From Phycisphaeraceae bacterium (GTDB taxonomy: Bacteria > Planctomycetota > Phycisphaerae > Phycisphaerales > SM1A02), in contig JAHBWZ010000002.1 of assembly GCA_019636755.1 (NCBI GenBank), forward strand, positions 310,001 through 374,000: a stretch of DNA of 64,000 nt, read 5' to 3'. The notes below the pieces were generated by a model. That model was not told the origin of the DNA and ran no database searches. It saw only the letters and a program-made list of their open reading frames with translations. Both the position numbers and the translations under genes were made by a program. Below are positions 15,470 through 38,462 of this stretch, piece by piece. Position 1 is the stretch's first letter. Every line of letters starts with the position of its first letter.

Positions 15470-17302
15470 ATGCCAGGCGTCCTGCGCGACCATCTCCTGC
15501 TGCTGCCCGCCGAACTGCCGTGGCTGGTGCGCCTGCGCTGGTCGGCCGGGGTGGCCGTGCTCGTGGCCGCCGCGGGCCATGGTGTCCTGGGCGACTGGAG
15601 TTCCGACCACACTGTGGGCGTGATGGTCGGCATCGTCGTGCTGCTCTACAACGCGGCCTTCCGGTCCCTCTCGAGGCGCGCGCCGGTGGGCATCCGGCCG
15701 GGGCGCATGCTGCTCCTGGCGGGGACCACCATCCTGCTCGACCTCGGCATGCTGACGGCGCTGATCGTCGTGACCGGCGGCGTCACCAGCCCGCTGCTGG
15801 GACTGTTCGTCCTGCACGCCGTCATCGCCATGCTGCTGCTGCCTCCGTTCATCGGCTACGGCGTCATGGGCCTGTCGGTCCTGATGATGTTCAGCGGCCT
15901 GTGGTCGACCGACCAGCTTCCGACGGATCGCACGTCGACACTGCTGATCAGCGGCTGGACCGCGACACTCCTGCTCACGGCATTCGTGGCCAACCACATC
16001 ACCGCACGACTTCGCCGCCAGGAGGTCCACGGGAGGATCCAGCAGGCACGCCTCCAGGCGATCCTTGACACCGCGGCCGACGGCGTCATCACGATCGATC
16101 AGCGCGGCGTGATCCAGTCGGCCAACACCGCGGCCGCGGACATCTTCGGCTATGCGATCGAGGAGATGCTCGGCCGCAACGTGAACATGCTGATGCCGGA
16201 ACCGGATCATGGCCGGCATGACGGGTATCTCGCCGACTACCTGCGCACGGGCCACGCGAAGATCATCGGCATCGGACGCGAGGTCTACGGCCGCCGGCGC
16301 GGCGGGGAGGTGTTCCCGCTGGAACTCGCCATCAGCGAGGTGGCCACCGACGGCGCCCGCGGCGGCCGGATGTTCACCGGCATCCTGCGCGACATCACCC
16401 TGCGGAAGGCGGCGGAGACCGAGCTGCGCGACGCGAACGAGACGCTCCTTCGCCAGCAGCAGGCCCTCGTGCAGAGCGAGAAGATGGCCGCGATGGGCAA
16501 GATGGCCGCCGGCGTCGCCCATGAGATCGCCAATCCGCTGTCGAGCATGGACAGTCTCCTCCAGCTTGCCCTGCGCCGCGCTGCGGCCCGGGGGAAGCCG
16601 CAGGAGGACCCCGCCGGGCACCGGCCGGAGGTGGAGGCGCAGGCCTGCGGGCACCACGACGTCACGGCGGATCCCGCGACCCGGGAGATTCCGACCGCAT
16701 CGATCGGGCTGCTGCGGGAGCAGATCGAACGGATCGCCCGCATCGTCCGGGAGCTGACGACCTTCGCCCATCCTGACAGCGCTGAGTGGCGCATCATGCC
16801 GCTCTGCGAGATCGTCCGCGAGGCGCTGCGGATGGTGCGCTTCGATCGACGGCTGAGGGGGATGCGTGTGGCGTGCGACTGCTGCGAGGATGCCGTCGGC
16901 GTCCGTGTCGTCCCCCAGCAGATGTACCAGGTGATCATCAACCTGGTCATGAACGCACTCGATGCGATGGAGAACGTCGAGCAGCCGGTACTGACGATCC
17001 GGACCTTCTCCCGGGACTCATGGCGCGTGATCGAAGTCACGGACAATGGCCATGGAATCCCGCCGGAACAGATCTCCCGGATCTTCGAGCCGTTCTTCAC
17101 GACCAAGCCGGTGGGATGCGGTACCGGGCTGGGACTCTCCATCGCGTACAGCATCATCCAGCGCCACGGCGGGCGCCTGGACGCCACCAGCAGGCCCGGC
17201 GAGGGCACATCCTTCTCCATCTCGCTGCCCGCCGCCACCGGCCCGCAGCCGGCTGCAGACTCCGTCGCGTCTCCTGCTGCTGAGAACCACACCGGCGACT
17301 GA
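15470..17302 (+). CDS. PAS histidine kinase with FixL-type haem-ligand pattern
   Basis: A 610-residue sensor kinase. Five or six hydrophobic helices fill residues 20-180. A PAS domain (about 190-312) follows, then a DHp helix with H351 (GVAHEIANP) and an ATPase domain with N box (NLVMNALDAM), DNGHGIPP, FEPFFTTK and GTGLGLS. The PAS segment NVNMLMPEPD...RHDGY...IIGIGR closely follows rhizobial FixL: H250 aligns with the proximal haem ligand His200 and R270 with the O2-sensing Arg220, at the same 20-residue spacing. Similar PAS domains that have not been shown to bind haem exist, so oxygen sensing is inferred. An unusual 35-residue insert lies between the DHp helices. ATG 15470 is chosen as the first plausible start. 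Confidence 0.9.
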   Translation: MPGVLRDHLLLLPAELPWLVRLRWSAGVAVLVAAAGHGVLGDWSSDHTVGVMVGIVVLLYNAAFRSLSRRAPVGIRPGRMLLLAGTTILLDLGMLTALIVVTGGVTSPLLGLFVLHAVIAMLLLPPFIGYGVMGLSVLMMFSGLWSTDQLPTDRTSTLLISGWTATLLLTAFVANHITARLRRQEVHGRIQQARLQAILDTAADGVITIDQRGVIQSANTAAADIFGYAIEEMLGRNVNMLMPEPDHGRHDGYLADYLRTGHAKIIGIGREVYGRRRGGEVFPLELAISEVATDGARGGRMFTGILRDITLRKAAETELRDANETLLRQQQALVQSEKMAAMGKMAAGVAHEIANPLSSMDSLLQLALRRAAARGKPQEDPAGHRPEVEAQACGHHDVTADPATREIPTASIGLLREQIERIARIVRELTTFAHPDSAEWRIMPLCEIVREALRMVRFDRRLRGMRVACDCCEDAVGVRVVPQQMYQVIINLVMNALDAMENVEQPVLTIRTFSRDSWRVIEVTDNGHGIPPEQISRIFEPFFTTKPVGCGTGLGLSIAYSIIQRHGGRLDATSRPGEGTSFSISLPAATGPQPAADSVASPAAENHTGD

Positions 17303-17505: not shown

Positions 17506-19041
17506 GTGCTGAAGTGGATTCGACCCGTCTATGCGACACGCCGTCGGAGGTGGATCCTCTTCCTCGTCGTGGGGTTCTTCGTATTCACGCTCGCCAGCAT
17601 CGAGCTCACGAGCCGGAGCTGGTTCTGCAACTCGTGCCACATCATGAAGCCGTATTACCTCTCCTGGCAGAATGATCCGCACAGCGACGTCGCGTGCGTG
17701 AAGTGCCACATTCCCCCGGGCGGTGCGAACGTCATCCACGCCAAGCTCGACGGCCTTGCCCAGGTGGTCAGCGATGTCCTGAACCGGTCATCGACGAAGC
17801 CGAGCACCGCCGTCAGCGACTTCTCCTGCACACGCGCCGGCTGCCATGTCGCGTCCAGGCTGGGGAAGGCCCGCGACGGCGAACGGTCGTACCACTTCGA
17901 CCATGCCAGGCATCTTGACATGACCTACCTGGGCATCGCGGTGCACTGCTCGACCTGCCACTCATTCATCAAGGAGGGCTCGACGCACTTCGAGGTCAAT
18001 ACGAACGTCTGCATCACGTGCCACCTGATGGACGGGTATGCCGCAGAACTGGCGCAGGCGCCGGATCACGCGATGGCCATCAACTCCCGGAACGGCTCCG
18101 GGAACGGTGCCGGGAACGGTGCCGGGAACGGGCCCCGGCGCCTCATCGCCGGAGAGCAACAGGTGCTCGGCACCCGGAACGGCGTCGACCTGACGCGGCG
18201 CGCCCCGTCGTCATGCGACGCCTGCCACACGCCGCCGGAAGGCCAGTTCGAGCACAACGGCGTGCTCATCGACCATGCCAAGTACCTGTCGTACGACGCT
18301 GACTGCCGTTCATGCCACAAGGGCGTGACCGCGGCGCCTCCGCCCGTCGATGACTCGCGCTGCCTCAGTTGCCACACATTCGGTATGGAACGATCTCCGG
18401 CCACGACCGAGGAACTTCACCAGTTGCACGTCGAGGGCCGCCACAAGGTCGAGTGCTTCAACTGCCACGGCTCCATTCAGCACGGCACGATCGCCGAGGC
18501 CGCGATGCTCAACGAGTTCGACTGCCAGTCATGCCACACGGGACAGCACCAGGCACAGCGCTCGATGTACCTGCACGCGCCGGAGGTCGACGGGGTCCGG
18601 CTCGAGCGCCTCGCGGTGAGCCCGATGTTCCTCACGCACGTCCCGTGCACCGGATGCCACGTCACCATGGACGAGGTCCGCGTGCGGCCGGGCAGCGGCG
18701 CCCGAGTCGCCCGTGCGACGGCTGATTCATGCGACAGCTGCCACCGTCCCGGCCTCGGGCAGATGCAGGTCCCACTGTGGCAGCGCAACACGCGCGAACT
18801 CTACGACCAGGTCTCCAGGCTGCTCGACCAGGCCCGGTCGCACGCGGCAGACAGTGACGATCCGGAGACCGCGCAACTCATCGGTGACGCCCGGCAGCTC
18901 CTGGACATCGTCCGCCTGGACGGCAGCTGGGGCGTACACAACCCGCGCTATACGCAGTCGCTGCTGGAGCGGGCGCGGGTGAACGCGATGCGCGTGATCT
19001 CTGACGGGTCAGCACCGTCGCGCGGAGAGGTCTCACCGTGA
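17506..19041 (+). CDS. NapC/NirT-like dodecaheme cytochrome c
   Basis: A 511-residue membrane-anchored cytochrome. One transmembrane helix (about 16-36) is followed by SWFCNSCHIMKP, the first-haem signature of the NapC/NirT/NrfH quinol dehydrogenase family, and then a long haem-rich periplasmic part. I count 12 haem motifs: 11 CXXCH and one CX4CH (CTRAGCH). A Gly-Asn linker (NGAGNGAGNG) from 12-base repeats separates the NapC-like part from the distal haems. The architecture suggests that electrons are taken from menaquinol and passed along a periplasmic wire. No CXXCK motif is present, so it is not NrfA. GTG 17506 has GGAG nine bases upstream; a GTG at 17419 would lie within the sigma54 promoter. 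It overlaps the next gene by four bases. Confidence 0.9.
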   Translation: MLKWIRPVYATRRRRWILFLVVGFFVFTLASIELTSRSWFCNSCHIMKPYYLSWQNDPHSDVACVKCHIPPGGANVIHAKLDGLAQVVSDVLNRSSTKPSTAVSDFSCTRAGCHVASRLGKARDGERSYHFDHARHLDMTYLGIAVHCSTCHSFIKEGSTHFEVNTNVCITCHLMDGYAAELAQAPDHAMAINSRNGSGNGAGNGAGNGPRRLIAGEQQVLGTRNGVDLTRRAPSSCDACHTPPEGQFEHNGVLIDHAKYLSYDADCRSCHKGVTAAPPPVDDSRCLSCHTFGMERSPATTEELHQLHVEGRHKVECFNCHGSIQHGTIAEAAMLNEFDCQSCHTGQHQAQRSMYLHAPEVDGVRLERLAVSPMFLTHVPCTGCHVTMDEVRVRPGSGARVARATADSCDSCHRPGLGQMQVPLWQRNTRELYDQVSRLLDQARSHAADSDDPETAQLIGDARQLLDIVRLDGSWGVHNPRYTQSLLERARVNAMRVISDGSAPSRGEVSP

Positions 19042-20552
19042 AGCGCCTGGCCGTGCTCCTCTGCGGGTCCCTGTTGATCGCGCTGGTGTCGCTCGGGCTC
19101 GCGACGCCCCCGACGCAGCGCCCCACCACGCGCATGCCCGACTGCACCAGCGGAGGATGCCACGCCGACGTCACCCGGTTCCGGTTCCTGCATGCACCGG
19201 TGGCGGTGGATGCGTGCGAGGTCTGCCACGTCCACGACGATCCGGCACGGCACACCTTCAGGCTCATCGAACGGCACGGCGACGAGCCGATCTGCTCGTT
19301 CTGCCACATCGGCAAGAGCACGTTCGGCCGCGGAGACGGCTGGGCGGGACTGCATGTCCATGAGCCGGTCGCATCGGGCAACTGCCTTGCCTGCCACAAC
19401 CCGCACGGCTCCAACATGCGCAATCTCGTCAATGCCGATACCGTCAGTTCGCTCTGCTCGAGCTGCCACGACGGGAAAGTCGGCCAGGCGCACATGCATC
19501 CGCCCGTCGGCGAGAAGGAGTGCCTGAGCTGCCACCAGCCGCACTCCGGCCCGCACAGGAACCTGCTGCATGAACCCGGGCGCGACCTCTGCCTGGGCTG
19601 CCACGCGGACGTTCTGCCCGCACGGACGGACACGCGGTCACACCTGCCGGGTCACCGGACACCGGGGTCCGGACTGCACGCCGGAGCACGGATGGCGATC
19701 TGGGCAAGCGCCCTCCTCGCCCCGCACGTGCAGCCGGTCCGGGACGATCCGCGGACGCCCGCGGCCAGTTCCACCATCGTCCACGAGCCGCTCCTCGGCG
19801 CATGTTCCGAGTGTCACAACCCGCACGGCTCACCCTATCCGAGCATGCTCCAGAAGGACGTCAGGAACCTCTGCACCTCCTGCCACGCGGACATCGCGGT
19901 CCGTATGAACACCGCGACCGTTCATCACAGCGCGGTGCTGGATGACCGTTCCTGCATCAACTGTCATTCCCCGCATCACAGCCCGCACACGGCGCTGCTC
20001 AGCGATCAGCCCATCGCACTGTGTGCAGGCTGTCACAAGGACTCGCACAAGCGGCCCGATGGAACGATGGTCCAGGGCATGAGCGCGCTGTTCAAGGGCT
20101 CGCACCTGCACGGCCCGATCAACGACGGCCAGTGCTCCGGATGCCATGATGTGCACGGCGGAATGCGCCAGTCCCTGCTCACCGCGCCCTACTCCGGCGA
20201 ACTCTACCAGCCGTTCGCCGAGGAGAACTACGCGCTCTGCTTCACCTGCCATGACCCGGCCCTCGCGCGGGAGCCGCGCACGACGACGGCCACCCGGTTC
20301 CGCAACGGCGATCTGAACCTGCACTACCTGCACGTCACCGCACCCGACGAGTCCGGCCGGTCCTGCCGCTTCTGCCACGACACCCACGCCAGCGCGGCGC
20401 CCCGCCAGATGCGCGCAAGCGTGTCCTACGGACAGTGGGAACTGCCGATCCGGTTCGAGGCGACCGAGACCGGCGGCACCTGCGGCGCGGGATGTCACCG
20501 TGAACGTGACTACACGCGTGACCTGCTGAATGCCATCGGTCCGCGCAAGTGA
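19038..20552 (+). CDS. Secreted 15-haem cytochrome c
   Basis: A 504-residue exported cytochrome with a signal peptide (about 1-23). I count 15 haem motifs: 13 CXXCH, one CX4CH (CTSGGCH, first) and one CX3CH (CGAGCH, last). Repeats of the form CXXCHxPH (CHNPHG, CHQPHS, CHSPHH, CHDVHG) mark it as a doubled-CXXCH-type multiheme protein, often found in metal-reducing or otherwise electron-exporting bacteria. It starts with GTG overlapping the stop of the dodecaheme gene, so the two are translationally coupled under the sigma54 promoter. Periplasmic or outer-surface location is likely; the redox partner is inferred to be the beta-barrel conduit encoded convergently. Confidence 0.9.
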   Translation: MKRLAVLLCGSLLIALVSLGLATPPTQRPTTRMPDCTSGGCHADVTRFRFLHAPVAVDACEVCHVHDDPARHTFRLIERHGDEPICSFCHIGKSTFGRGDGWAGLHVHEPVASGNCLACHNPHGSNMRNLVNADTVSSLCSSCHDGKVGQAHMHPPVGEKECLSCHQPHSGPHRNLLHEPGRDLCLGCHADVLPARTDTRSHLPGHRTPGSGLHAGARMAIWASALLAPHVQPVRDDPRTPAASSTIVHEPLLGACSECHNPHGSPYPSMLQKDVRNLCTSCHADIAVRMNTATVHHSAVLDDRSCINCHSPHHSPHTALLSDQPIALCAGCHKDSHKRPDGTMVQGMSALFKGSHLHGPINDGQCSGCHDVHGGMRQSLLTAPYSGELYQPFAEENYALCFTCHDPALAREPRTTTATRFRNGDLNLHYLHVTAPDESGRSCRFCHDTHASAAPRQMRASVSYGQWELPIRFEATETGGTCGAGCHRERDYTRDLLNAIGPRK

Positions 20553-20751
20553 TCCCGACCGCCCGCAATCGCCGGCGGGCGCCCACGCGGGGACCGCGTG
20601 CATCGGCAGGACCACCGTCGCATGACGCGCCGGCCGCCGGCATGTCGCCACGGCCCCTTGGCGCGTCGCGACGCTGACTCGACGCGCGGCGGCCGCGACC
20701 GGATCTGGCCTCGGGGCTGGCCTCGGGGCTGGCCGGTCCCGCCGGCCGGCG

Positions 20752-22560
20752 TCAGTACTCCTTCGGCGAATGCGCGACGCCGTGGCAGGAGAGGAAGCAG
20801 GTTCCGGACCCGGGCCCGAGGTCTCGGTACTCCAGCCGACCGGTGACGGGGTCGGGGAAGACGATCGAGAGATCGAAGTTCATCAGGTACGCGTTGTGCG
20901 TCCTGCTTCCGCCGGCCGTTGAACTGACGCCGTGGGCGTCGTGGCAGGCGGAACACGGCGTCCGGCTGTCCACGACATGCAGCTCGTGGTACCGGAACGA
21001 GCGGTTGCCGAGAATCCCGTCGGCGCCGTCCCGCTCGTGACACGTGTAGCACAACGCGTAGGCCTGCGGACTCTCCATGGTGAGATCGGCGGTCTCGTAC
21101 CGTGCGATGAGCAGGCCGGGATAGTTCGATCCATGCACGCCATCAGGACCGCTGCCCCCGGCCTTGCGGCCGGTGTCGGACCCGTGACAGTCGCTGCAGT
21201 AGACCATGCGGCCGCCACGCCACTCGGGCTTGAGCGAAGGCACGTCCGCGGCGCCGCGCCCCGGGGAGTGGATCGGATGCGCGCTGGCCGCCGTCCGGCC
21301 GAAGACCATGCGCAGGTTGGGTTCCAGCACCTGGCGACTGATCGTCGGCGTCCGGATCACGTTCTCATCGGCATGGCACTTGAAGCAGACCTCGTACTCG
21401 TACCGGGCCGCGCTCAGCGGCGTGCCGGAAGCGCTGACGCCGCTGACCTTCCCGAGTGCTGCCTGGATGAACGGCGCCTGCTGGCTGCCGCTGCCCCCGA
21501 TCCTGCCGCTGAACCCTCCGGGATGCATCGTGTGGGGGTCGTGGCAGTCGGTGCAGGAGACGCCGGCATGACCTTCCCCGGCCGACCTCGGCGTGTTCCG
21601 CGCTGAACGGCTCCCACCCGGCATGGCGCTCTGGTTCCGGAGACCCACCTGCGCACCGTGCACGCTGATCCGGTTGAGTTCCGCGGCAATGTTCTGCGCG
21701 CTGCGGTGCATCCCGTCGTGGCAGGAGAGGCAGGTCGCATCCGCGTCGATGCCGCGCAGCAGGTGCGGCCCGCTCGGTGCCGAGTGCGGCTGATGGCAAC
21801 TCGCACAGTCGGTGTGGTCGGGAATCGTGGTCGTCGAGATCGTGTGACAGGACCGGCACATCGTCGAACTCTCGTTGCTCATGACCAGGAACTTGCCGTA
21901 CACGTTGTTGTGCGGGTCATGGCAGGTGATGCACTGCAGCTCCTGGTTGTGATCCAGCTTCATCGCCGGAGGCAGTGCGCGGGGATCGACGAGATTCCCG
22001 TTCTGGAGCGCGAGAGACGTGTCGTATCGGAACGAGACCGGGTGGTCGTCGGAGAGATCGGTCCCCAGGTTGGCGTGTCCCTGCGGCATGACGGTGACGC
22101 CGCCGAGCATGTGGATCGGATCGCTGCGCGACAGGACACTGCCGAGCGCGATCGTTCCATCGTGGCAGGAGAGGCAGAGCTTCGAGGAGCCGGTCGGCTG
22201 CCCCGGCCGCGCCACCATGGAACTGCTGGTGTACGGGGTATAGATCGCGGTCGACTCGGCGCGATTCCACAGCGCCTGTACGCGGGAACCGTGGTGCGGC
22301 GCGTGACAGAAGATGCAGACTTCCGGCTCGCTCGACGCGCGCACGCTCCCGGGGCCCCACGCCGAGAGGTTGTGCGGTGAGTTCACGACGCTCTCCACCT
22401 GTGCGACCGCGAGATTCGCGACCGTCGCCCCGATCGCGCAGACGGCGACCGGGAGAGACAGGATCATGATGCGGGTGCGTACCAGGCGTGCGCGCGAATC
22501 CGCGCGCGACGGTCGACCTGGACTCCGGAAACCCGTCCGCCGGGATGGCGTGTGCGTCAT
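20752..22560 (-). CDS. Secreted dodecaheme cytochrome c of the conduit operon
   Basis: A 602-residue cytochrome with an N-terminal signal/anchor (about 32-54). Twelve haem motifs are visible: 11 CXXCH and a final CX3CH (CFLSCH). Paired CXXCHxPH units (CHAPHH, CHDPHN, CHQPHS, CHDPHT, CHDAHG) place it in the doubled-CXXCH family. The last motif being CX3CH mirrors the 15-haem protein encoded on the other strand, and the two genes are convergent. Its start overlaps the stop of the upstream NHL lipoprotein by four bases. As the last gene of the operon with the beta-barrel, it may be the large haem wire that enters or caps the barrel. Confidence 0.88.
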   Translation of the reverse strand: MTHTPSRRTGFRSPGRPSRADSRARLVRTRIMILSLPVAVCAIGATVANLAVAQVESVVNSPHNLSAWGPGSVRASSEPEVCIFCHAPHHGSRVQALWNRAESTAIYTPYTSSSMVARPGQPTGSSKLCLSCHDGTIALGSVLSRSDPIHMLGGVTVMPQGHANLGTDLSDDHPVSFRYDTSLALQNGNLVDPRALPPAMKLDHNQELQCITCHDPHNNVYGKFLVMSNESSTMCRSCHTISTTTIPDHTDCASCHQPHSAPSGPHLLRGIDADATCLSCHDGMHRSAQNIAAELNRISVHGAQVGLRNQSAMPGGSRSARNTPRSAGEGHAGVSCTDCHDPHTMHPGGFSGRIGGSGSQQAPFIQAALGKVSGVSASGTPLSAARYEYEVCFKCHADENVIRTPTISRQVLEPNLRMVFGRTAASAHPIHSPGRGAADVPSLKPEWRGGRMVYCSDCHGSDTGRKAGGSGPDGVHGSNYPGLLIARYETADLTMESPQAYALCYTCHERDGADGILGNRSFRYHELHVVDSRTPCSACHDAHGVSSTAGGSRTHNAYLMNFDLSIVFPDPVTGRLEYRDLGPGSGTCFLSCHGVAHSPKEY

Positions 22561-23660
22561 GGTGCATCCTCCTGGGCGTGAGCACCGAGATACTGGAACA
22601 CCTGGGCGCGCCGATTGTACGTGTCGGCGACCCAGATCCGATCGTTCTGATCGACGTGCAGGCCCGCGGGCAGCCAGAACTGGCCCGGCCCGATGCCTTC
22701 CGCGCCGAACACCAGCAGCAGGCGCCCGATCGAGTCGAAGATCTGCACGACCTCGAAGTGCGCGTCGACGACATAGAGGTGGTCTTCGCTGTCCAGCGCC
22801 AGGCCCTTGGGCTGCGAGAAGCTCCCCGCCGTGTTGCCGCGCTCCCCGATCTGCCGGACGAAGTTCAGATCGGCGTCGAAGACCTGGACCCGGAAGTTGA
22901 GCGAGTCGCTGACGTACAGCCGACCCGTGCTGTCCACGGCCACGTCGGTCGGGAAGTTGAACTCCCCGGCTGAGTTGCCGCGCGTCCCCAGTCTCCGGAC
23001 CAGGCCTCCGCCGCGATCAAGCACGATGACCTGGTGCGCCGCGGCGTCCGCGACATAGATCCGGCCGCGCCGTGCATCCACGGCCAGGCCGCACGGCCGG
23101 ACCAGGTCCTCGGCGCCGATCTCGCCCAGCAGCGTGCCGCCGGCGTCGAACATGAAGATCGCCCCCCGCGCCGAATCGGCGACGTACAGGCGCTCGACCG
23201 GCGCGGGATGCCATGCGATGCCGATCGGCTGGATGAACCCGTCCCCGCCCCCGGCGGGCGGTCGCCACTGCTCGAAGCGGCGCGAGTCCAGGTCGAACAC
23301 GTGCACGACCCTGCTTCCGCTGTCGCAGATGAAGACGCGGCTCCCGCCATCTGAGGTGATCGCGTAGGGCGCGACCATCGCCATGACCGCGGACTCGCCG
23401 AAGAGGACCCGGCCGATCGCCTGGGTGATCGTCCGTCCCGGCCTGAGATCCCGGTCCGTCATCAGTGCGCCGACATACTCGATGCGTGCCTGGTCCGGCG
23501 GCGCCGGCCAGCGCAGCGGGTTCTCCAGCGGTGGAAACACGGGACCCGTCGGCCGCGCACAGCCGGTCGGAACCGTCGCGGCGAGGACCGCGATGAGGGC
23601 GAGGCTGCAGGCGCCTCCGCCTCCCGGCCGTCCTCCGTCCGATGCCCGTTCGACGCTCAC
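22557..23660 (-). CDS. NHL-repeat beta-propeller lipoprotein
   Basis: A 367-residue exported protein with a lipobox-like cysteine after the hydrophobic segment (ATVPTGCARP). Six NHL-type blades of about 45 residues follow, recognisable by repeats such as FNFPTDVAVDSTGRLYVSDSLNFRVQVF. NHL propellers bind protein or polymer partners and are frequent next to multiheme cytochromes and outer-membrane barrels in Geobacter-like and planctomycete genomes. The gene begins with GTG directly at the barrel stop codon and overlaps the dodecaheme gene, so it belongs to one transcription unit. A scaffolding role at the outer membrane is inferred. A second propeller is encoded at 26428-27729. Confidence 0.85.
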   Translation of the reverse strand: MSVERASDGGRPGGGGACSLALIAVLAATVPTGCARPTGPVFPPLENPLRWPAPPDQARIEYVGALMTDRDLRPGRTITQAIGRVLFGESAVMAMVAPYAITSDGGSRVFICDSGSRVVHVFDLDSRRFEQWRPPAGGGDGFIQPIGIAWHPAPVERLYVADSARGAIFMFDAGGTLLGEIGAEDLVRPCGLAVDARRGRIYVADAAAHQVIVLDRGGGLVRRLGTRGNSAGEFNFPTDVAVDSTGRLYVSDSLNFRVQVFDADLNFVRQIGERGNTAGSFSQPKGLALDSEDHLYVVDAHFEVVQIFDSIGRLLLVFGAEGIGPGQFWLPAGLHVDQNDRIWVADTYNRRAQVFQYLGAHAQEDAP

Positions 23661-25718
23661 TCAGAACTCCCTTCGCAGGCCCACGAACAGGTCGTGAAAA
23701 CGTGAATTGCCGAGGTCACTGTCGAGCCAGGTGTTGCGGAGCGATGCATGGACGGTCGTCTGCCGATAGCGCCAGTTGAGTTCCAGGCGCTGCTCGAACC
23801 CCTGGACATCGAACAGCGCGTTGTCCCGCTCGTCGCGCCAGCGTACCTCGACGCCCATGTGCAGCCGGTCGGTGAGCTGCTGGTTCCAGCGGGCACTGAC
23901 CGTCAGGATCGTCGTCCGGATGTCGTCCTGGTAGCGATCCAGATCGAGCCAGGTACCGGTGAGCACCACCGAACTGTCCCGTCCGAACGGCCGGGAGTAG
24001 CGGCCCTCGAGGCGCGTCGATCGCACGGGCGAGATCGTGCTCTCACGGTGCGTCCGCTCGGCCAGGAACGTCAGCGAGCCGATGCTGTAGTCCGCGCCGT
24101 AGACGATCTCGCGGATGTCCGCCGGAGGGAGGAATCGATCCGTGGGCTCCTCGGAGCGCCATTGATCCTGCTGGAAGTACCGTCCATACACCCCGAGACC
24201 GCGCAGCGGGCCGTCCTCGAAGTCATACCGCACCGTGTACCGCATGCTCAGCGTATCGGTCGTCTGGCCCGGATCGGGCCCGAACCGGTAGCTGAGAAGC
24301 ACGGTCGCGCCATCCGGGATGTTCCCGCCGATGGCGCGCCTGATCTCGACCTGCTCCACGAAGTCGAGCACGAAGTAGTCGAGTCCCTCCGAGTAGGTGA
24401 AGGTGCCGGCGGCGTTGGTCATCACGATCGATCCGACGTCGATCCTTCGTCGCTGGATCACGATGATGCCGGCTCCGGAGAACGTGTGTGGCTCGTTGAC
24501 GATCTGCAGCGATCCGTTGCGATCGCTGTCCTCCCGGTGGCTGTAGCGGAAGGATGCACCGGCGTTCAGCCGGCCGTATGGAACCTTCTTCGTGTACTGG
24601 AAGTCGATATCGCCGAAGCCCTCGGCGCTGGAGAAGCCCGGAGTCTCCAGTCGCAGGTGGCTCGCACCGACATTGCCGGTGGTGACCAGCGACTCGAAGA
24701 GCCGGTGCTGAAAGCCGGCCTGGCCACGATGAAGACGCTGATCAACACCCGGTCTCCGGACCCAGTCGAACGTGTAGTCGTAGCGCGTTTCGAAGTCCGG
24801 ATCATGCCGCATGCGGAGCAGTTCGAAGAGGCGGAGGCGGCGCGTATCCGTGAATCCGCTCTCGTCGAACAGGTACAGCTGCGACCGAAGTGAATGCTCG
24901 GCGTTCTCGCCGAAGTCCAGATTGTGCAGGAGGAGGGCGTCGTGCCTCTGGTATGACCGTGACGGGACACCGGCGCCGCTCTGCGCGATGTCATCGAACG
25001 TGTAATCGAGGGAGAGCAGCTGGCGCGGACCGATCTGCGCTCGATTGTGGAACTGCACCGTGTCCTGCACCATCCTGTTGTCGAAGGTGCCGCTGTCCGA
25101 TCGCATGTCGATGTCGCGATGGAAGTACTGGATGTTCCCCGGATACAGCTCATGACGCCAGTCGATCCGGATGCCATGCTCCGTGGTCGTCGAGTCGAAC
25201 GACTCGCTGAACGGGCGCGACACGACGGCGTCCGTCCGTCGTGAGTACACCGTGGCCGGCAGATCCGATTCCTTCAGAACGCGACCCACGAAGTCGTACT
25301 CGGTGATGAACTCCAGGTCCCATGCGCGGCGGCCGACGCCGAGCGGCTCCTGGATCGCCTGTGTCTGGGTCAGCGCGAACCGCGAGAGCGCGTCCGTGTC
25401 GGAGTACCGCTGTGTCGGCGTGAATCGACCCAGGAGGTCGAATTCGAACAGGTTCGGATGGCCCGCGTATCCCTTCGTCGACAGTTCGACCAGTTCCCGC
25501 AGTTCGAGCGTCCTGCTGCTCGCCGAAGCGTCTCGACGGCGCTCCGACTCGTCCCGGTAGCGCAGCGACAGTTCAAGAGAGGCGCGGAAGTCCGTGAACC
25601 GGAGTCCCTCCAGTTGATCCTCGTCCCCGACGACGACCGGATCCCCGACCTGCCCGAGCGCGGGACCGCTGAGCATCATGGCCGTGACTCCGGCGATTGG
25701 GAGGATCCTGGACAGCAT
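23661..25718 (-). CDS. Large outer-membrane beta-barrel of a putative porin-cytochrome conduit
   Basis: A 685-residue exported protein with a signal peptide ending near ALGQ (about residue 22). Nearly the whole chain consists of alternating hydrophobic and polar residues separated by charged loops, many strands ending in aromatics, and the final residues GLRREF fit the C-terminal recognition signal of outer-membrane barrels. I saw no cysteine. The size is close to MtrB/PioB-type barrels (about 700), which hold a multiheme cytochrome inside the pore. Sequence identity to MtrB cannot be claimed by eye, but the neighbours (5- and 12-haem cytochromes, two propeller lipoproteins) make a porin-cytochrome conduit the best reading. 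A plain porin is the alternative. Confidence 0.8.
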   Translation of the reverse strand: MLSRILPIAGVTAMMLSGPALGQVGDPVVVGDEDQLEGLRFTDFRASLELSLRYRDESERRRDASASSRTLELRELVELSTKGYAGHPNLFEFDLLGRFTPTQRYSDTDALSRFALTQTQAIQEPLGVGRRAWDLEFITEYDFVGRVLKESDLPATVYSRRTDAVVSRPFSESFDSTTTEHGIRIDWRHELYPGNIQYFHRDIDMRSDSGTFDNRMVQDTVQFHNRAQIGPRQLLSLDYTFDDIAQSGAGVPSRSYQRHDALLLHNLDFGENAEHSLRSQLYLFDESGFTDTRRLRLFELLRMRHDPDFETRYDYTFDWVRRPGVDQRLHRGQAGFQHRLFESLVTTGNVGASHLRLETPGFSSAEGFGDIDFQYTKKVPYGRLNAGASFRYSHREDSDRNGSLQIVNEPHTFSGAGIIVIQRRRIDVGSIVMTNAAGTFTYSEGLDYFVLDFVEQVEIRRAIGGNIPDGATVLLSYRFGPDPGQTTDTLSMRYTVRYDFEDGPLRGLGVYGRYFQQDQWRSEEPTDRFLPPADIREIVYGADYSIGSLTFLAERTHRESTISPVRSTRLEGRYSRPFGRDSSVVLTGTWLDLDRYQDDIRTTILTVSARWNQQLTDRLHMGVEVRWRDERDNALFDVQGFEQRLELNWRYRQTTVHASLRNTWLDSDLGNSRFHDLFVGLRREF

Positions 25719-25774
25719 GGACTGGATCCGTTCATCAGGCAGGGACCCGTGGTGAACGGTGGCCTTGGAACTCT

Positions 25775-26431
25775 CTACCTGTCTGCATCTCCGGTCCCGG
25801 GTCCGTGCGCCCGCAGGTAGGCGCGGCGCTCCCCGCCGTGCCCGGAGTGGCAGTCGAGACAGTCACGCGCCGGATCGCGATGCTCGACGATCTCCGTGCG
25901 CCTGCGGCCGAGACTCGTGCTGTGGCATTGCTGGCAGAGCTGCTGGGAGGGCACCCGAAGCAGGCGTGCAATGGTCGACTCGTGCGGGGCGTGGCACCAG
26001 ACGCAGGCGTCGGCGACGACCGGGCCGTGCATGTACCGGTGCTCGCTCCTGACTCCTTCATGGCACTTGAGGCAGACGGTCGGCTCGACCTGGGTCAGCA
26101 TCCGGCCCGCTCCGCCCGAGTGGCAGTCGCCGCACTGGCCCTGCGCGTAGGGCGCATGCGCGAAGATCTCCCCGCCGGTGCGACGGGCAAGCGCCAGCGC
26201 ATCCTCGCTCTGCCTGAGCAGCGCCGGATCCGGAACACCGTCGAAGAACATGCTCAGCAGCGCGTAGTGCCGCTCGACGCTGCAGCTTCCCCACAGCACA
26301 ACGGCGCCGACACCTGCGACCAGCAGCGCCAGGCGCCGCCTCGGCGGCCGCGCCCCCGCAGGCCGCGCGACAGATGCCGCGGGGGGCGCCGGCAGTTGTG
26401 CTCCGCCCCGCTCTGGCAGCGTGCCGTTCAT
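25775..26431 (-). CDS. Pentaheme cytochrome c, membrane-anchored or lipoprotein
   Basis: A 218-residue cytochrome with an N-terminal hydrophobic segment followed by GSCSVE, a possible lipobox. Five CXXCH sites are present: CGDCH, CLKCH, CVWCH, CQQCH and CLDCH. Between anchor and haems is HYALLSMFFDGVPDP, a motif I associate with cytochromes of the same general type in other bacteria with outer-membrane conduits. Its start overlaps the stop of the upstream NHL lipoprotein by four bases, and the barrel gene follows after 56 bases. It probably carries electrons between periplasmic cytochromes and the barrel. Confidence 0.87.
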   Translation of the reverse strand: MNGTLPERGGAQLPAPPAASVARPAGARPPRRRLALLVAGVGAVVLWGSCSVERHYALLSMFFDGVPDPALLRQSEDALALARRTGGEIFAHAPYAQGQCGDCHSGGAGRMLTQVEPTVCLKCHEGVRSEHRYMHGPVVADACVWCHAPHESTIARLLRVPSQQLCQQCHSTSLGRRRTEIVEHRDPARDCLDCHSGHGGERRAYLRAHGPGTGDADR

Positions 26432-27729
26432 GGCCGCTCCGGCTCGGGTGCCGGCATCGGCTTGAGCAGGTGGACCGGGAGATCCTCGGGCAGCGTGTAC
26501 TCGTTTCCCTGTCCGGTCGCCGACGGGGCGTCCCTGAGAAGTTCGTCCATGTCGGCACGGGGCACGGCGCCGGCGTCGGGCGCGCCCCCGGGGCTCGACG
26601 GGATCCGGGCCGCGGCGGAGACCACGTCCTGGGGCGTCCGGCCGTCCCGGAGGCGACCCATCGCGTAGACCGAGACCCTGTTCGGGCCGAACTGATTGGT
26701 CACCAGGATCAGCCGCTCGGCCCTGAACGCCGGGTGGATGCGATCCGCGAACAGTTCCAGGTCACCCTCGTGGACGGACACGCCCACGGGCAGGAGCATC
26801 GCTCCGGGGTGATCGCCTGCGCCGCCGAAGAACATCAGCAGCCGCGCCTGCTCGTCGAACATCTGCACGTTCTGGAACGCGGCGTCGACGATGTACATGA
26901 TGCCGTCTGAATCGACGGCCATCAGTTTCGGCCGGACGAAACTGCCGAGCGCATCGCCGGTTTCTCCGAAACTCTGAAGCAGTTCCCCGGAGCTGCTGAA
27001 CTTCTGAACGCGGCAGCGCAGCGCGTCGGCGACATACACATTGCCGGTCCGGTCCACATCGACGCCGAGCGGCCAGACGAACCGGCCGTCCTCGTCGCCG
27101 CGCTCTCCGATGCGTCGCAGTTCACGGCCGGTGTGGCGATCCACCACCAGGACCTGCTGGCTCTCGAAGTCGCCGACGAAGAGTTCCCCGCCATGCACCG
27201 CGATGCCGGTCGGTCGGGCGCCGCTGAAGCCGAACGACGTGACATGCCGGTCGTCGGCATCGAAGACGAGAATCGCGCCGCGCCGGATGTCGGTGACATA
27301 CTTGACGCCGTCCGGCGTAATGGCGATATCCGTCGGGCTCGCGAAGCGGACCGCGCCGCTGGTGCCGAGCATGCGGACCTGCTGTCCGCGGAGGTCGAGG
27401 CACAGCACCGCTGCGTTGCGGATGTCACAGACGTAGATCCGGCCGTTCCACATCGCCACGCCGTACGGCATGTTGATGGGCAGCACCTTCTGTTCCTTGC
27501 CGAACACGAGTTCGTCGAATCCACTCCGCGGCGGCCGGACGTCGGCGCTGAATCGATAGGACGCAAGGAACTGGATGCGAGGCGCTTCGGGGAACAGGGG
27601 CCAGAACGAGTAGCTCTCCTGTCGAGCGGCCTTCACCGGTGCGGATGCACATCCGCCCAGCACGGACAGCACCATGGCGCCCAGGCATGCGGCGAACGAC
27701 GTGGAGAAGATGCGATCCATGACGTCCAC
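26428..27729 (-). CDS. NHL-repeat beta-propeller lipoprotein, first gene of conduit operon
   Basis: A 433-residue lipoprotein (lipobox LGGC near residue 26) with six propeller blades such as FVWPLGVDVDRTGNVYVADALRCRVQKF, followed by a proline-rich C-terminal tail of about 70 residues. It is homologous in fold and N-terminal region (RIQFLASY here, RIEYVGAL there) to the propeller at 22557-23660, so both share an extra N-terminal motif in front of the blades. It is the first gene of the run 27729-20752. No sigma54 element was found directly upstream, so readthrough from the promoter at 28627-28642 past the hairpin at 27826-27853 is possible. Confidence 0.85.
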   Translation of the reverse strand: MDVMDRIFSTSFAACLGAMVLSVLGGCASAPVKAARQESYSFWPLFPEAPRIQFLASYRFSADVRPPRSGFDELVFGKEQKVLPINMPYGVAMWNGRIYVCDIRNAAVLCLDLRGQQVRMLGTSGAVRFASPTDIAITPDGVKYVTDIRRGAILVFDADDRHVTSFGFSGARPTGIAVHGGELFVGDFESQQVLVVDRHTGRELRRIGERGDEDGRFVWPLGVDVDRTGNVYVADALRCRVQKFSSSGELLQSFGETGDALGSFVRPKLMAVDSDGIMYIVDAAFQNVQMFDEQARLLMFFGGAGDHPGAMLLPVGVSVHEGDLELFADRIHPAFRAERLILVTNQFGPNRVSVYAMGRLRDGRTPQDVVSAAARIPSSPGGAPDAGAVPRADMDELLRDAPSATGQGNEYTLPEDLPVHLLKPMPAPEPERP

Positions 27730-27825
27730 CCTCTGTTCAGGACCGTGTGCGGATGAAGGACGACCTGTCCCCGGTCATGAGATGTGCGTTCGACCCGTCG
27801 CCGCAGCCCGCCGGCCGCGGGAACG

Positions 27826-27853
27826 GCTGGGTCGGCCGAGGGGCCGACCCAGC
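27826..27853. terminator. Hairpin with 12-bp perfect stem after the tetraheme gene
   Basis: Arms 27826-27837 and 27842-27853 pair exactly around a four-base loop. It lies 33 bases past the stop of the leftward tetraheme cytochrome gene and 97 bases before the next leftward gene. No T-run follows, so partial termination or mRNA-end protection is plausible. Confidence 0.5.
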
Positions 27854-27885
27854 GCCAGCGAGATACCGGCGGGCGAGCGCGGACG

Positions 27886-28542
27886 TCACTTGATGTGGCA
27901 CGTCAGGCACAGGCTGCTGCCGTCGTTGGTCTTGCGCAGCATGTACGGATGCACCGTGTTGTGGACATTGTGGCAGGTCGTGCAGCCGACCACGCGCTCC
28001 ATCACGCCGTTGACCTCCAGGTCCTGGAGGAACATGCGGCCGGATCCGGCGGGATGTTCCCAGCTGGCCGCGGGCTGGAAGCGGGAGTTCCCGGCGACCG
28101 GATACACGCCCGTCGCGCCGACGGGGTGATCGTCGGACAGATCGGTGCCGACAAGCCCGCTGCCCCCGATGAACGTGGCGCCCGCCTTGCCGCCGAAGCT
28201 GTCCAGCGCCACGGTTCCGTCATGGCAGGACATGCAGAGGATGCTGCCGCTGTCCAGCGCCTCGTTCCACGGCGCCGTGCCGCCCTCGAAGAGGGTGTAG
28301 GTGGCCTGCGTGAGTTCGTGGTTCCAGAGCGGCGCCCTCGCCACGGTCGTGTCCGCGCCGTGCGGGATGTGGCACGGGAGGCAGATCTGGCTGTTTGACC
28401 ACCCGAGCGCGCTGAAGTCGTGCGCGCTGCCCGTGATGGGCGCGTTCTGCGCCGTGATGGACATGGCGGCGAGGCCGACCGTCGCCGCAGCGACTCCGGC
28501 GAGGATGAGGACTCGGGACTTCACTGGTTTTCCGTACTTCAT
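27886..28542 (-). CDS. Secreted tetraheme cytochrome c
   Basis: A 218-residue exported cytochrome with a signal peptide (about 8-32, ending SITAQN). Four CXXCH sites occur: CLPCHIPHG, CMSCHDGT, CTTCHNVHN and CLTCHIK at the very C terminus. The segment around LVGTDLSDDHPV is shared almost word for word with the dodecaheme protein at 20752-22560 (LGTDLSDDHPVS), so this is a shorter relative of it. The ATG at 28542 has AAGGACC upstream; a reading extending to 29127 crosses the promoter region and is not accepted. A sigma54-like element lies about 85 bases upstream. It probably serves the conduit as a soluble electron carrier. Confidence 0.88.
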   Translation of the reverse strand: MKYGKPVKSRVLILAGVAAATVGLAAMSITAQNAPITGSAHDFSALGWSNSQICLPCHIPHGADTTVARAPLWNHELTQATYTLFEGGTAPWNEALDSGSILCMSCHDGTVALDSFGGKAGATFIGGSGLVGTDLSDDHPVGATGVYPVAGNSRFQPAASWEHPAGSGRMFLQDLEVNGVMERVVGCTTCHNVHNTVHPYMLRKTNDGSSLCLTCHIK

Positions 28543-28626
28543 GGAGAGGTCCTTTCGCGAAACGGGTCCGACGGGGGGCACGGATCCAGGCACTGCGAGG
28601 ACGCGCGCCTCCCGCCGGTCCACTCG

Positions 28627-28642
28627 AACAACCTTCATGCCA
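28627..28642 (-). promoter_or_regulatory. Sigma54-like -24/-12 element for the tetraheme gene
   Basis: On the minus strand TGGCATGAAGGTTGTT keeps the -24 box and spacing but has GT at -12 where GC is usual. Transcription would begin about 70 bases before the ATG at 28542. The strength is uncertain. Confidence 0.55.
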
Positions 28643-28739
28643 ATTGCTCCCGCGAAGAGGGATGTTTGCAGAAATGCACGCTGGCGAGGCCGGATCGCGT
28701 CGGGTGCCCCCGCAACCGGGGGGTGGATTCCCTGGACCG

Positions 28740-28755
28740 TTCCCATGGGCGGGAA
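28740..28755. promoter_or_regulatory. TTCCC-N6-GGGAA palindrome shared by two divergent promoters
   Basis: TTCCCATGGGCGGGAA lies 97 bases from the leftward and 176 bases from the rightward sigma54-type element. Its outer arms are identical to those of the palindrome at 14019-14034. It is a candidate binding site for the activator encoded at 12625-14004. Confidence 0.6.
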
Positions 28756-28931
28756 TCGGCTCCGCCGCCGGTTCTCGATTGCAGCAGGGATGAACGCGGC
28801 GGGCGGCGCGACGCCGGCGGATTCCGGGGCCCGCCCGCCCGGCAGCGCGCCATGCGCCGCGACGATTTCCGCCCCGCCTCGGGCCTCCAGGACGGGATTC
28901 GCGGGTTCCGCCCCTGCATTCGCAGGCCGTC

Positions 28932-28947
28932 TGGCAAGCCGCTTGCT
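28932..28947 (+). promoter_or_regulatory. Sigma54 -24/-12 promoter of the ccm operon
   Basis: TGGCAAGCCGCTTGCT matches the consensus TGGCACG-N4-TTGCW with one change (A for C in the -24 box) and correct GG-N10-GC spacing. The predicted start near 28958 gives a leader of about 36 bases before ccmE. Confidence 0.72.
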
Positions 28948-28993
28948 CTCCGGGGTCCGACGCACGGACTCGGACGTCGCGGAGCCCATCGAC

Positions 28994-29464
28994 ATGACAC
29001 ACCTGCGCCGCAAGCTGCTCACCGCCACGCTCGCCATCGGCCTCGCCGTCTCGCTGCTCGCGTGGGCGGGCCTGAAGGAGGGCTGGGTGTACTCCATGAG
29101 CGTGGACGACTTCGTCGCCGCCGGCACCCCCGGACACGGTCAGCGCGTCCGGCTGCATGGCACCGCCGGCGAAAGCGACTTCGATGTCAGCCACGGCGGG
29201 CTGTGGGCGAACTTCAACATCCACGGGAGTCAGCAGGTTCTCCGGGTCGCGTACCAGGGCGTCATTCCGGACATGTTCCATCCGGGACACGACGTCATCA
29301 TCGAGGGCCGGCTGGACGCCGAGGGCACCTTCCGCGCCGATACGCTGATGACCAAGTGCGGAAGCCGCTACGAGTCCGAGCCGGGCACCCCCGGGATGCC
29401 GCACGCAGACCCCCGCGCAACCGCCGGTGATCCGGCCTCCGGTGACCGGGGGATGGCGTCATGA
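28994..29464 (+). CDS. ccmE: CcmE haem chaperone, Cys-X3-Tyr (System I*) type
   Basis: A 156-residue periplasmic haem chaperone with one N-terminal transmembrane helix (about 7-26) and an OB-fold domain. CcmE normally carries haem on a histidine in a HxxxY motif; here that position is cysteine, C122 in TKCGSRYE, with Y126. The CX3Y form is known from archaea and Desulfovibrio, where it defines the variant maturation System I*, usually without CcmH. The ATG at 28994 gives the expected short cytoplasmic N terminus; the open frame extends far upstream through the promoter region without coding character. Its stop overlaps the ccmF start by four bases. Maturation of the many local cytochromes is the obvious need. 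Confidence 0.93.
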   Translation: MTHLRRKLLTATLAIGLAVSLLAWAGLKEGWVYSMSVDDFVAAGTPGHGQRVRLHGTAGESDFDVSHGGLWANFNIHGSQQVLRVAYQGVIPDMFHPGHDVIIEGRLDAEGTFRADTLMTKCGSRYESEPGTPGMPHADPRATAGDPASGDRGMAS

Positions 29465-31623
29465 CCGCGATTCTCGGGCACCTGAGTCTCATGCTGGCCG
29501 TGCTGGCCGCGGCCGGAGGTCTCCTGGCCGCCACCGCATCGGTGCGATTCGACTCCGCCGCGTACCGGCGCTGGTCGCAGCGGCTGATCATCGCCACCTT
29601 CGGCGGACTGACGGTCGCCCTGGTCGCTCTTCTCGTGGCACTCGTGAACGGCGAGTTCCGCTTCACCTACGTCGCGTCGTACACGGACCAGGCGCTTCCG
29701 GTCCCGTTCCGCATGGCGGCGCTCTGGGCGGGACAGGAGGGGTCGCTGCTGCTCTGGGCGTGGCTGCTCAGCCTGCTCTGCGTGATCGCGGTCTTCGGCT
29801 ACCGCCGGATCGAAGGCGCGCACATGACGGTCGCACTCGGTGTGATCGCCTGCGTGTGCGGGGTCTTCGCCTCACTGCTCCTGTTCGCCGCCAATCCCTT
29901 CGAGATCTTCCCGGGTCCCGCGCCGCAGGACGGCCGCGGCCTCAACCCGATGCTGCAGGACCCGGCGATGATCGTGCACCCGCCGCTGCTGTTCCTCGGG
30001 TACGCGGCATGCACCATGCCGTTCGCGGTGCTCGTCGGCGTGCTCGTGACGGGGCGCCGGGACAATCGCTGGCTCGCGGAGATCCGACGGTGGGTCATCG
30101 TCTCCTGGACCTTCCTCGGCGCCGGCATCATCGTCGGTGGCTGGTGGGCGTACATGGAACTCGGATGGGGAGGCTACTGGGCATGGGATCCGGTGGAGAA
30201 CGCCTCGCTTCTCCCCTGGCTGACCGGTACGGCACTGATGCACTCCATCATGGTCCAGCAGCGCCGCGGCATGTTCAAGTTCTGGAATGCCGGGCTCATC
30301 GCGGTGACCTTCATCCTCTGCATCCTGGGAACGTACCTCACGCGCAGCGGCGTGGTCGACTCGGTGCATTCGTTCGCGGGCTCGGAACTTGCCACCTGCT
30401 TCCTGGTGTTCATCGTGGTCAGCGCCGTGCTCAGCGTCGGCCTGATCGCCTGGCGTCGCCATCACCTCCGGCCGGAGAATGACCTGGAGTCGCTGATCAG
30501 CCGCGAGGGCGCGTTTCTCGCCGCGAACATCCTGCTGGTCCTCATGATGTGCGTCACGCTGATCGGGACGGTCTTCCCCGTGATCACGGGGCTCATCGGA
30601 TCCGAGACCGCCAGCGCGAAACCGGCGTTCTACAACACGACGGTCTCACCGATGATCCTCATGCTCGTCGGCGTCATGGCGGTCGCCCCGGTGCTGCTGA
30701 GCGGCACGCGCAACGGCGACTCCGCCGCCCGGCAGATGGGGCGCCTGCTGACGGCGCCGGGCATCGCTGCGGCGCTGACCATGATCGCGGCCCTCGTTCT
30801 CGGCGTGCGGAATCACTGGGCGCTTCTTGTCACCGGCATCGCCGCGCTCGGCACCTTCACCGTCGTGATCGGCTTCGCACGCTCCATGAAGGCCCGTCGC
30901 ATGAACACCGGCGAGTCCTGGCTCGCGGCAGGGTGGCAACTGGTCGACGCCGATCACCGCCGCTACGGCGGGCAACTGGCTCACCTGGGCGTGATGATCA
31001 TGGTGATCGGCGTCGCGGGCTCGAGCCTCTATGACACAGAGGAACTCCATACGCTCGCGCCCGGCGAGTCCGCCGCCGCAGGACGATACACGCTGACGTA
31101 CAACAGGCTGGATGAGATTCCCGGTCCGAACTACACGGCTGTCCAGGCGGACCTGACCGTGACCGGTCCGCGGGGCCGGACCTTCCCGATGTACCCGCAG
31201 CGCCGCTTCTTCCTCAACTGGGAGGACAAGCCGCACACGCACGTCGCCATCCGGACGACGATGCGGGAAGACCTGTACATCGCGCTGGCCGGCTGGGAGG
31301 CCGGGGGCAGGCTGGCCGCGTTCAAGGTCAAGGTCAACCCGCTGGTGGTCTGGCTGTGGATCGGCTCGATCGTGATGGGTGTCGGCGCACTGTTCTGCCT
31401 GCTGCCACGGCTGACGCGAGCGGCGCGGGGTCGCGCTGCATCGGGCCAGGGCGAAATGCGGTCGGTCGGGCAGGACCGCCGGGATGACCGGCGGACGCCG
31501 GGTTCCGTCACGAACGGGACGCCTTCCGGATCGCCCCTGCGTCCGAAGCCGCAGCCGGCAGCGTCACATCCATACCGGGAACCCGTGCGCGCCACGCGCA
31601 TCGAGACGGAGACTTCACGATGA
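29461..31623 (+). CDS. ccmF: CcmF haem lyase component
   Basis: A 720-residue polytopic membrane protein that joins haem to apocytochrome c during maturation. The tryptophan-rich WWD segment (WWAYMELGWGGYWAWDPVENAS) and the following LPWLTGTALMHS stretch are diagnostic of CcmF. About 14 hydrophobic helices are visible, with a large periplasmic loop near the C terminus. Length is slightly above the usual 650. It overlaps ccmE and the next gene by four bases each, so the operon is translationally coupled. The last 60 residues are low-complexity. Confidence 0.95.
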   Translation: MTAILGHLSLMLAVLAAAGGLLAATASVRFDSAAYRRWSQRLIIATFGGLTVALVALLVALVNGEFRFTYVASYTDQALPVPFRMAALWAGQEGSLLLWAWLLSLLCVIAVFGYRRIEGAHMTVALGVIACVCGVFASLLLFAANPFEIFPGPAPQDGRGLNPMLQDPAMIVHPPLLFLGYAACTMPFAVLVGVLVTGRRDNRWLAEIRRWVIVSWTFLGAGIIVGGWWAYMELGWGGYWAWDPVENASLLPWLTGTALMHSIMVQQRRGMFKFWNAGLIAVTFILCILGTYLTRSGVVDSVHSFAGSELATCFLVFIVVSAVLSVGLIAWRRHHLRPENDLESLISREGAFLAANILLVLMMCVTLIGTVFPVITGLIGSETASAKPAFYNTTVSPMILMLVGVMAVAPVLLSGTRNGDSAARQMGRLLTAPGIAAALTMIAALVLGVRNHWALLVTGIAALGTFTVVIGFARSMKARRMNTGESWLAAGWQLVDADHRRYGGQLAHLGVMIMVIGVAGSSLYDTEELHTLAPGESAAAGRYTLTYNRLDEIPGPNYTAVQADLTVTGPRGRTFPMYPQRRFFLNWEDKPHTHVAIRTTMREDLYIALAGWEAGGRLAAFKVKVNPLVVWLWIGSIVMGVGALFCLLPRLTRAARGRAASGQGEMRSVGQDRRDDRRTPGSVTNGTPSGSPLRPKPQPAASHPYREPVRATRIETETSR

Positions 31624-36073: not shown

Positions 36074-36198
36074 GCACCGAGGATCACGGCGCACGCCCGG
36101 GCCCGGAGGTCCCGGCGTGTGTCGCCTGCGGCCCGATCCGCCTTCGCAGAGGATGCATCCGTGCGACCATCGTCCATCACGCGGAGCCGAAGCGCACC

Positions 36199-37029: not shown

Positions 37030-37063
37030 CCGGGCGGGCTCGATCGGTCCGGTCGCCGCCGAG

Positions 37064-38323: not shown

Positions 38324-38462
38324 GGGATCTGCCGCGGGAAGGGATCGGGAAGCGTGACGGGATGCGGGACGCGGACCACCGGAGATCCGGCGGCCCGGCC
38401 CGGGGAGCCCGGACGCCGCGCGTGTTTCCTCTCCGGCGCCGTGTGAACTCCCCGGTGAACGG

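Follow-up and report, generated by a model that had tools for sequence, protein, structure and literature searches.

The route by which electrons move between extracellular cytochrome filaments and the periplasm has been described as poorly understood even in Geobacter (PMC10553843), and a gene cluster in a planctomycete genome raises the question of what the junction between filament and cell might be. The window analysed here is a 64,000-nucleotide stretch of Phycisphaeraceae bacterium (Planctomycetota; assembly GCA_019636755.1, contig JAHBWZ010000002.1, positions 310,001 to 374,000), in which eight genes at 17.5–28.5 kb encode five multihaem cytochromes (A to E), two NHL beta-propellers (NHL1 and NHL2) and one predicted outer-membrane beta-barrel. 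We propose that this locus encodes a quinol-linked, envelope-spanning conduit joined to an OmcE-type filament, with C as the docking base, a reading to which we give a probability of roughly 0.6. An initial annotation of the same DNA had described a porin-cytochrome complex and had treated the tetrahaem protein as just another cytochrome. The conduit parts it listed are upheld, but E proves to be an OmcE-family (nanowire-type) subunit and C also contains an OmcE domain, which makes the locus a nanowire-plus-conduit module rather than a conduit only.

E and C are related to the OmcE nanowire subunit

E contains four haem motifs and matches two solved structures over nearly its full length: the OmcE nanowire subunit (7tfs, E-value 1.2e-16) and a second OmcE-family entry with 16 identical chains (9yuq, 2.5e-20). 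The C-terminal CxxCHxK motif of OmcE is shared by this E and found in 52 of 61 E proteins. By homology, E is a member of the OmcE cytochrome nanowire family, and it may polymerise. C carries 12 haem motifs, 11 CxxCH and one CX3CH, the latter being invariant in 11/11 aligned relatives. Residues 42–239 of C match 7tfs (6.6e-28) and the match is confined to that part, so that C consists of an N-terminal OmcE-like domain (approximately residues 42–240) followed by eight further haems.

The histidines were compared in an alignment of 146 OmcE-type domains. All eight haem-ligand-type positions of OmcE, four proximal and four distal histidines, are retained in the E proteins (seven positions in 59/59, one in 56/59), in the C domains (73/73, with one position at 72/73) and in the UetJ-like proteins discussed below (3/3), and one additional OmcE histidine is not retained. 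In published work on OmcE filaments, one haem takes a histidine ligand from the adjacent subunit (PMC9473688, PMC12954529). Because exactly four distal histidines are kept for four haems, the C domain appears to retain the equipment for incorporation into an E filament. A maximum-likelihood tree of 68 domains separates E (89/89), C (95/65) and the Geobacter-type OmcE proteins (98/87), and joins C to the UetJ-like proteins (100/96). Since E, C and OmcE fall into three groups, E and C look like old copies that have been maintained separately.

The barrel, D and the NHL proteins

The 685-residue barrel has no cysteine and ends with phenylalanine. As initially annotated, it is a large beta-barrel in the AlphaFold model (predicted local distance difference test score, pLDDT, 82.7), which contains 17 strands, an inserted beta-domain (residues ~404–480) and 11 further strands; the total of about 28 transmembrane strands is our reading of the predicted secondary-structure line. 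MtrB (6r2q_B) has the top query TM-score (0.39) among the 50 Foldseek matches listed, and LptD and MtrB are among the leading ones, although such Foldseek and VIA matches (TonB receptors, LptD, MtrB) are generic for big barrels and indicate the fold only. No match to Pfam or NCBIfam families was found for the window barrel or for 16 diverse relatives, and the barrel profile matched no PDB sequence. No named porin family was matched, and the barrel is not placed in an unrelated porin family, the outcome that the initial annotation had named as contrary to a conduit. Membership of the MtrB/PioB family was rejected, as neither the window barrel nor the 16 relatives matched its profiles in a comparison that lacked a positive control and leaves room for remote kinship; a genome search for MtrB/PioB, in which the control also gave no match, is not counted as evidence. 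The inserted domain, with its EGxDY...GGxIxDG motif, ranks with the most strongly conserved regions of the barrel family, and the shorter Uet-like barrels do not show it. It is possibly a docking domain.

D, with five haem motifs, matches MtrA (6r2q_A, a chain deposited under an odd name; 3.4e-10) over MtrA residues 203–319, the outer half that holds the last five haems of MtrA. A cysteine is conserved shortly ahead of an FFDGVP motif in 35/36 relatives of D. The MtrA/DmsE decahaem model TIGR03508 (cut-off 192 bits) is missed by both D (58) and B (117). The haem number of D varies from 5 to 21 across relatives, and in five Verrucomicrobia-titled loci (L070, L074, L083, L085 and L087) the D position holds 11–21 haems, as if an in-barrel wire had been extended by repeat units. 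D is expected within the barrel by analogy to MtrAB and because its gene precedes the barrel gene, which is suggestive only.

Both propellers contain NHL repeats, as the initial annotation had recognised. Its assignment of both as lipoproteins holds for NHL2, which has a clear lipobox (VLGGC), and is doubtful for NHL1, in which the lipobox is weak; a plausible lipobox is present in D. By position, NHL1 pairs with C and NHL2 with E, and these proteins may hold or assemble the complex at the outer membrane.

A and B as candidate quinol-side and periplasmic components

A contains 11 CxxCH motifs and one CX4CH motif. Its N-terminus has a hydrophobic segment that would serve as a membrane anchor and a NapC/NirT domain (PF03264, 6e-14; 52.5 bits against a cut-off of 24.1), and a short match to the NrfH structure 2j7a was also obtained, which makes A a candidate quinol-side protein of the NapC/NirT type. 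B contains 13 CxxCH, one CX4CH and one CX3CH motif, 15 in total, and has a paired-CXXCH domain (4e-59) and a partial match to MtrA (6r2q_A, 6e-12). It is a candidate periplasmic wire.

Conservation of the module

Ten further genomes from the order or family of the source carry the barrel, with 20–42% identity over the alignment. The order E-NHL2-D-barrel-NHL1-C is preserved in eight of them, so the search for the same cluster in related genomes that the initial annotation had suggested was productive. In the two more distant genomes the order is D-barrel-NHL1-C, D has 10 haems, NHL2 lies on the opposite strand and E was not seen within the stretch examined. A wider scan for relatives of C was made with one genome per species, and the best 80 loci were analysed. 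NHL1-C adjacency is present in 68/80, barrel-NHL1-C in 55/80 and E-NHL2 in 48/80; all six parts were recognised in at least 23/80, a lower bound because contigs are truncated and D is difficult to detect. The whole of E-NHL2-D-barrel-NHL1-C or large parts of it occurs in most of these loci, while B-like genes (14–16 haems) are present at 28/80 and A-like genes at 9/80. The carriers span about 10 phyla: Planctomycetota, Nitrospirae, Hydrogenedentes, BRC1, Verrucomicrobia, KSB1, several groups of Deltaproteobacteria, Gammaproteobacteria, Ignavibacteria/Bacteroidetes, Zixibacteria and Calditrichota, names that are taken with care from record titles, mostly of metagenome-assembled genomes (MAGs). 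As the gene order is kept in other genera at low identity and in other phyla, the module is more than a chance arrangement.

Within an even sample of the phylum, C was detected (E-value ≤ 1e-40) in 20/392 genomes, a patchy spread of the sort expected for a trait that is transferred or frequently lost; no copy of C was found on plasmids. Three Desulfuromonadia stretches (L127–L129) hold the module or most of it, and one gammaproteobacterial order has both E-NHL2-barrel-NHL1-C loci without D, in which C has 12 haems, and Uet-like loci. Gammaproteobacterial loci L146, L147 and L088 additionally encode two 8-haem proteins, one 3-haem protein and another NHL protein, and an 18–23-haem OmcE-related cytochrome beside C. 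One locus titled Leptolyngbya sp. PLA1 (L028) has the planctomycete-type module with A and B convergent, and is probably from a misnamed planctomycete MAG. Another carrier, Desulforhopalus sp. IMCC35007 (L072), is apparently an isolate (a RefSeq record without a MAG mark) and is a potential test organism.

Organization of the locus and its neighbourhood

The features are listed in Table 1. Motif counts, including the CX3CH and CX4CH variants, agree with the 12, 15, 12, 5 and 4 haems first assigned to A, B, C, D and E, and sum to 48. The short or overlapping junctions noted earlier are likewise found: the coordinates give 4-bp overlaps at A/B, NHL1/C and D/NHL2, the barrel abuts NHL1, D and the barrel are 56 bp apart, and NHL2 and E are separated by ~156 bp. 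A and B are co-directional and, as annotated, convergent with the rest, facing C across ~200 bp. Pfam assigns paired-CXXCH domains to B, C, D and E. The module is present as a single copy in the source genome. Promoter and terminator scans gave a signal no better than chance, or lower.

Table 1. Features of the window, by position.
Feature	Position	Strand	Assignment
Nitrate reductase-like cluster	390–8479		Periplasmic nitrate reductase-like genes
NapA-like enzyme	2906–5320		Within the cluster above
Sigma-54 response regulator	12625–14004	+	Likely regulator (Pfam)
Putative sensor	14138–15169	+	Likely regulator (Pfam)
PAS histidine kinase	15221–17302	+	Likely regulator (Pfam)
A	17506–19041	+	Membrane-anchored cytochrome resembling NapC/NirT, 12 haems, candidate quinol dehydrogenase
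B	19038–20552	+	15-haem cytochrome, candidate periplasmic wire
C	20752–22560	-	12-haem cytochrome with OmcE-like domain, candidate filament base/adaptor
NHL1	22557–23660	-	NHL beta-propeller, possible lipoprotein; PF01436 7e-27
Barrel	23661–25718	-	Predicted outer-membrane beta-barrel, 685 residues
D	25775–26431	-	5-haem MtrA-like putative lipoprotein, candidate in-barrel wire
NHL2	26428–27729	-	NHL beta-propeller lipoprotein; PF01436 5e-18
E	27886–28542	-	OmcE-filament-family cytochrome with four haems, candidate nanowire subunit
CcmE within open reading frame	28301–29464	+	Cytochrome c maturation (Pfam)
CcmF	29461–31623	+	Cytochrome c maturation (Pfam)
ATP-binding cassette (ABC) ATPase	32970–33764	+	Among cytochrome c maturation genes (Pfam)
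CcmC-like	34447–35223	+	Cytochrome c maturation (Pfam)
NapB-like group	35971–40193		Past the maturation genes

The upstream sigma-54 regulator, sensor and PAS kinase are likely regulators tied to the module by position only, and the cytochrome c maturation genes adjoin it and are divergent from it; these neighbours fit the module. The nitrate reductase-like cluster encodes, besides a NapA-like enzyme that scores 880 bits to PRK13532 (slightly below the cut-off of 904), NapB-like and NapG-like proteins, a DsrO/NrfC-like iron-sulphur protein, a paired-CXXCH cytochrome and a barrel of the Alginate_exp family. The group past the maturation genes contains a second NapB-like cytochrome, a DsrO-like iron-sulphur protein and a further paired-CXXCH cytochrome, and no NapA-like gene was seen beside it.

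Proposed electron path and alternative explanations

We infer a path that runs from quinol through A, B, D in the barrel and C to the E filament. A would exchange electrons with the quinone pool, and B would ferry them across the periplasm to D, an MtrA-like wire that may sit inside the barrel. C would lie at the outer surface and contribute, through its OmcE-like domain, the first protomer of an extracellular OmcE-type filament of E, and the NHL proteins may assist assembly or retention of the complex at the outer membrane. A more specific version, that C is a dedicated adaptor whose OmcE domain is protomer zero of the filament and whose eight further haems reach D and the barrel, is put forward tentatively, at somewhat less than even odds. 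The balance tilts slightly towards export of electrons to an external acceptor, with uptake also possible; the clues to direction in the genome are the NapA-like nitrate reductase genes and two haem-copper oxidase matches, and RuBisCO gave no match there.

Several observations weigh against the proposed path. CXXCH repeats align promiscuously, and B, like D, matches MtrA, which lessens the value of the MtrA likeness of D; five haems are also few for spanning the outer membrane alone. In the gammaproteobacterial versions D is not recognisable and another protein must fill the barrel, and at some loci (e.g., L021/L076 and L020) barrel-NHL1-C occurs but E was not seen within the stretch examined. 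AlphaFold gave a pLDDT of 30 for C (11 sequences), so we make no structural claim for C, and its docking is proposed from sequence. There is also dispute over what cytochrome filaments do physiologically (PMC11077965).

Some of these observations bear on other explanations. The barrel and NHL proteins might instead secrete and assemble the E filament, C acting as a cap or an assembly factor and electrons reaching the filament in some other way; we regard this as unlikely but as the strongest competitor. For Geobacter sulfurreducens, the genes around omcS in the osc operon have been suggested to contribute to nanowire folding, secretion and morphology (PMC13194489), and Geobacter-type OmcE loci have an NHL gene, and often a gene for a large outer-membrane-protein-like product, beside OmcE. 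However, C has 12 haems with invariant motifs, and an MtrA-like D with 5–21 haems adjoins the barrel gene, which suits a wire more than it does a secretion factor. Somewhat less probable still is a short-range porin-cytochrome conduit without a filament, in which E and C would be monomeric surface cytochromes that contact soluble or mineral acceptors. The loci that lack E near the conduit genes would agree with it; OmcE homology is no proof of polymerisation, and a review warns that only one of several Geobacter OmcS homologues is a known wire-former (PMC12977616). Yet E and C keep all eight ligand-type histidines, including the one that a neighbour supplies in OmcE, and an OmcE-like monomer with four distal histidines leaves one haem without a second ligand.

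The NapA-like enzyme with NapB- and NapG-like proteins in the window would suit an arrangement in which the cytochromes serve a periplasmic enzyme system such as this reductase and the barrel is a general porin, but the barrel, NHL1 and C co-occur across phyla and E and C are of filament type, which renders this highly improbable. A reading of the cytochromes as a soluble enzyme was judged unlikely. We retain the conduit joined to an OmcE-type filament as the most likely reading. The core of the initial annotation, an outer-membrane conduit distinct from Mtr, Pio and the familiar Geobacter sets, is well supported by the NapC-like A, the MtrA-like D beside the barrel and the co-occurrence of the genes. 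If the adaptor proposal is true, this arrangement would be the physical join of cytochrome nanowires to the cell interior, retained across about 10 phyla. In one recurrent module, a filament-type subunit, a protein in which the same domain is joined to eight further haems, a barrel and a candidate wire are united, which provides a concrete, testable candidate for the filament-cell junction and brings Planctomycetota and other little-cultured groups into putative nanowire biology.

Comparison with known systems

The composition differs from the Mtr, Pio and Geobacter sets, as first noted, but it is not unique to this genome, being found in about 10 phyla and related to Uet. MtrCAB, MtoAB and PioAB resemble the module in architecture, in that the gene for an MtrA-like wire adjoins that for a large barrel and an outer cytochrome is added. 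Compared with MtrCAB, the barrel here does not match the MtrB/PioB models, D carries 5 haems rather than 10, and C is OmcE-like rather than MtrC-like. The OmcE loci of Geobacter sulfurreducens (7tfs) and other Desulfuromonadia encode a cytochrome of the same family as E with an adjoining NHL gene, although E groups apart from OmcE in the tree. These loci have 10/11-haem and 8-haem genes and no C or D, and the large outer-membrane-protein-like gene in several of them is apparently unrelated to the barrel here (hhalign 26.6%, which leaves homology unsupported).

In OetABI, the osc operon and DFE_0448-0465, compared by description only, a conduit or secretion set is encoded with filament-type cytochromes. 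Oet and osc use hexahaem OmcS/OmcX-type cytochromes, unlike the tetrahaem E, whereas DFE_0448-0465 of Desulfovibrio ferrophilus comprises pentahaem lipoprotein, NHL and multihaem genes with no barrel reported. The Geoalkalibacter ferrihydriticus genes Ga0056053_02426-02431 reportedly encode two NHL proteins together with cytochromes of MtoA-like, quinol-linked and OmcE-like type (PMC12016550). Also compared by description only, this cluster is probably a member of the module, though no barrel is reported there.

Suarez (2023) is said to treat porin-cytochrome complexes in Planctomycetota and KSB1, and Eddie (2022) reportedly deals with Tenderiales; both are cited in PMC13264449 and may already describe parts of the module.

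Uet, known from Ca. Tenderia electrophaga and some Gallionella and discussed for cathode oxidation, is the closest described system. In Gallionellaceae it comprises UetJ (11/12 haems), the extracellular tetrahaem UetA, the barrel UetC, the NHL proteins UetHI, three trihaem proteins and an isomerase (PMC10734462; Tenderia genes in PMC5371394). The module shares a UetJ homologue (C), a tetrahaem cytochrome, a barrel and two NHL proteins. Neither the trihaem cytochromes UetDEG nor the isomerase UetB is found among the genes at 17.5–28.5 kb, where D, B and A replace them. Four Uet-like loci (L152–L155), recognised from gene content and not by name, encode an 11-haem protein of ~780 residues, compared with ~600 residues and 12 haems for C, together with NHL and trihaem genes. 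With the C profile, the intact 11-haem proteins score 200–270 bits, against ~600 for the 12-haem C proteins of the same order. The Uet-like barrels are ~80 residues shorter and lack the inserted-domain motif, and they seem remotely related to the barrel here (hhalign 95.7%, E-value 1e-8; hmmsearch 1.5e-12 to the L152 barrel); the L155 barrel gave no match on its own. In the literature examined, whose coverage is partial, no link of UetA or UetJ to OmcE filaments was found. Given the C profile scores and the remotely related barrels, C is a UetJ homologue and the module a sister type of Uet, through which Uet and the OmcE nanowires are linked.

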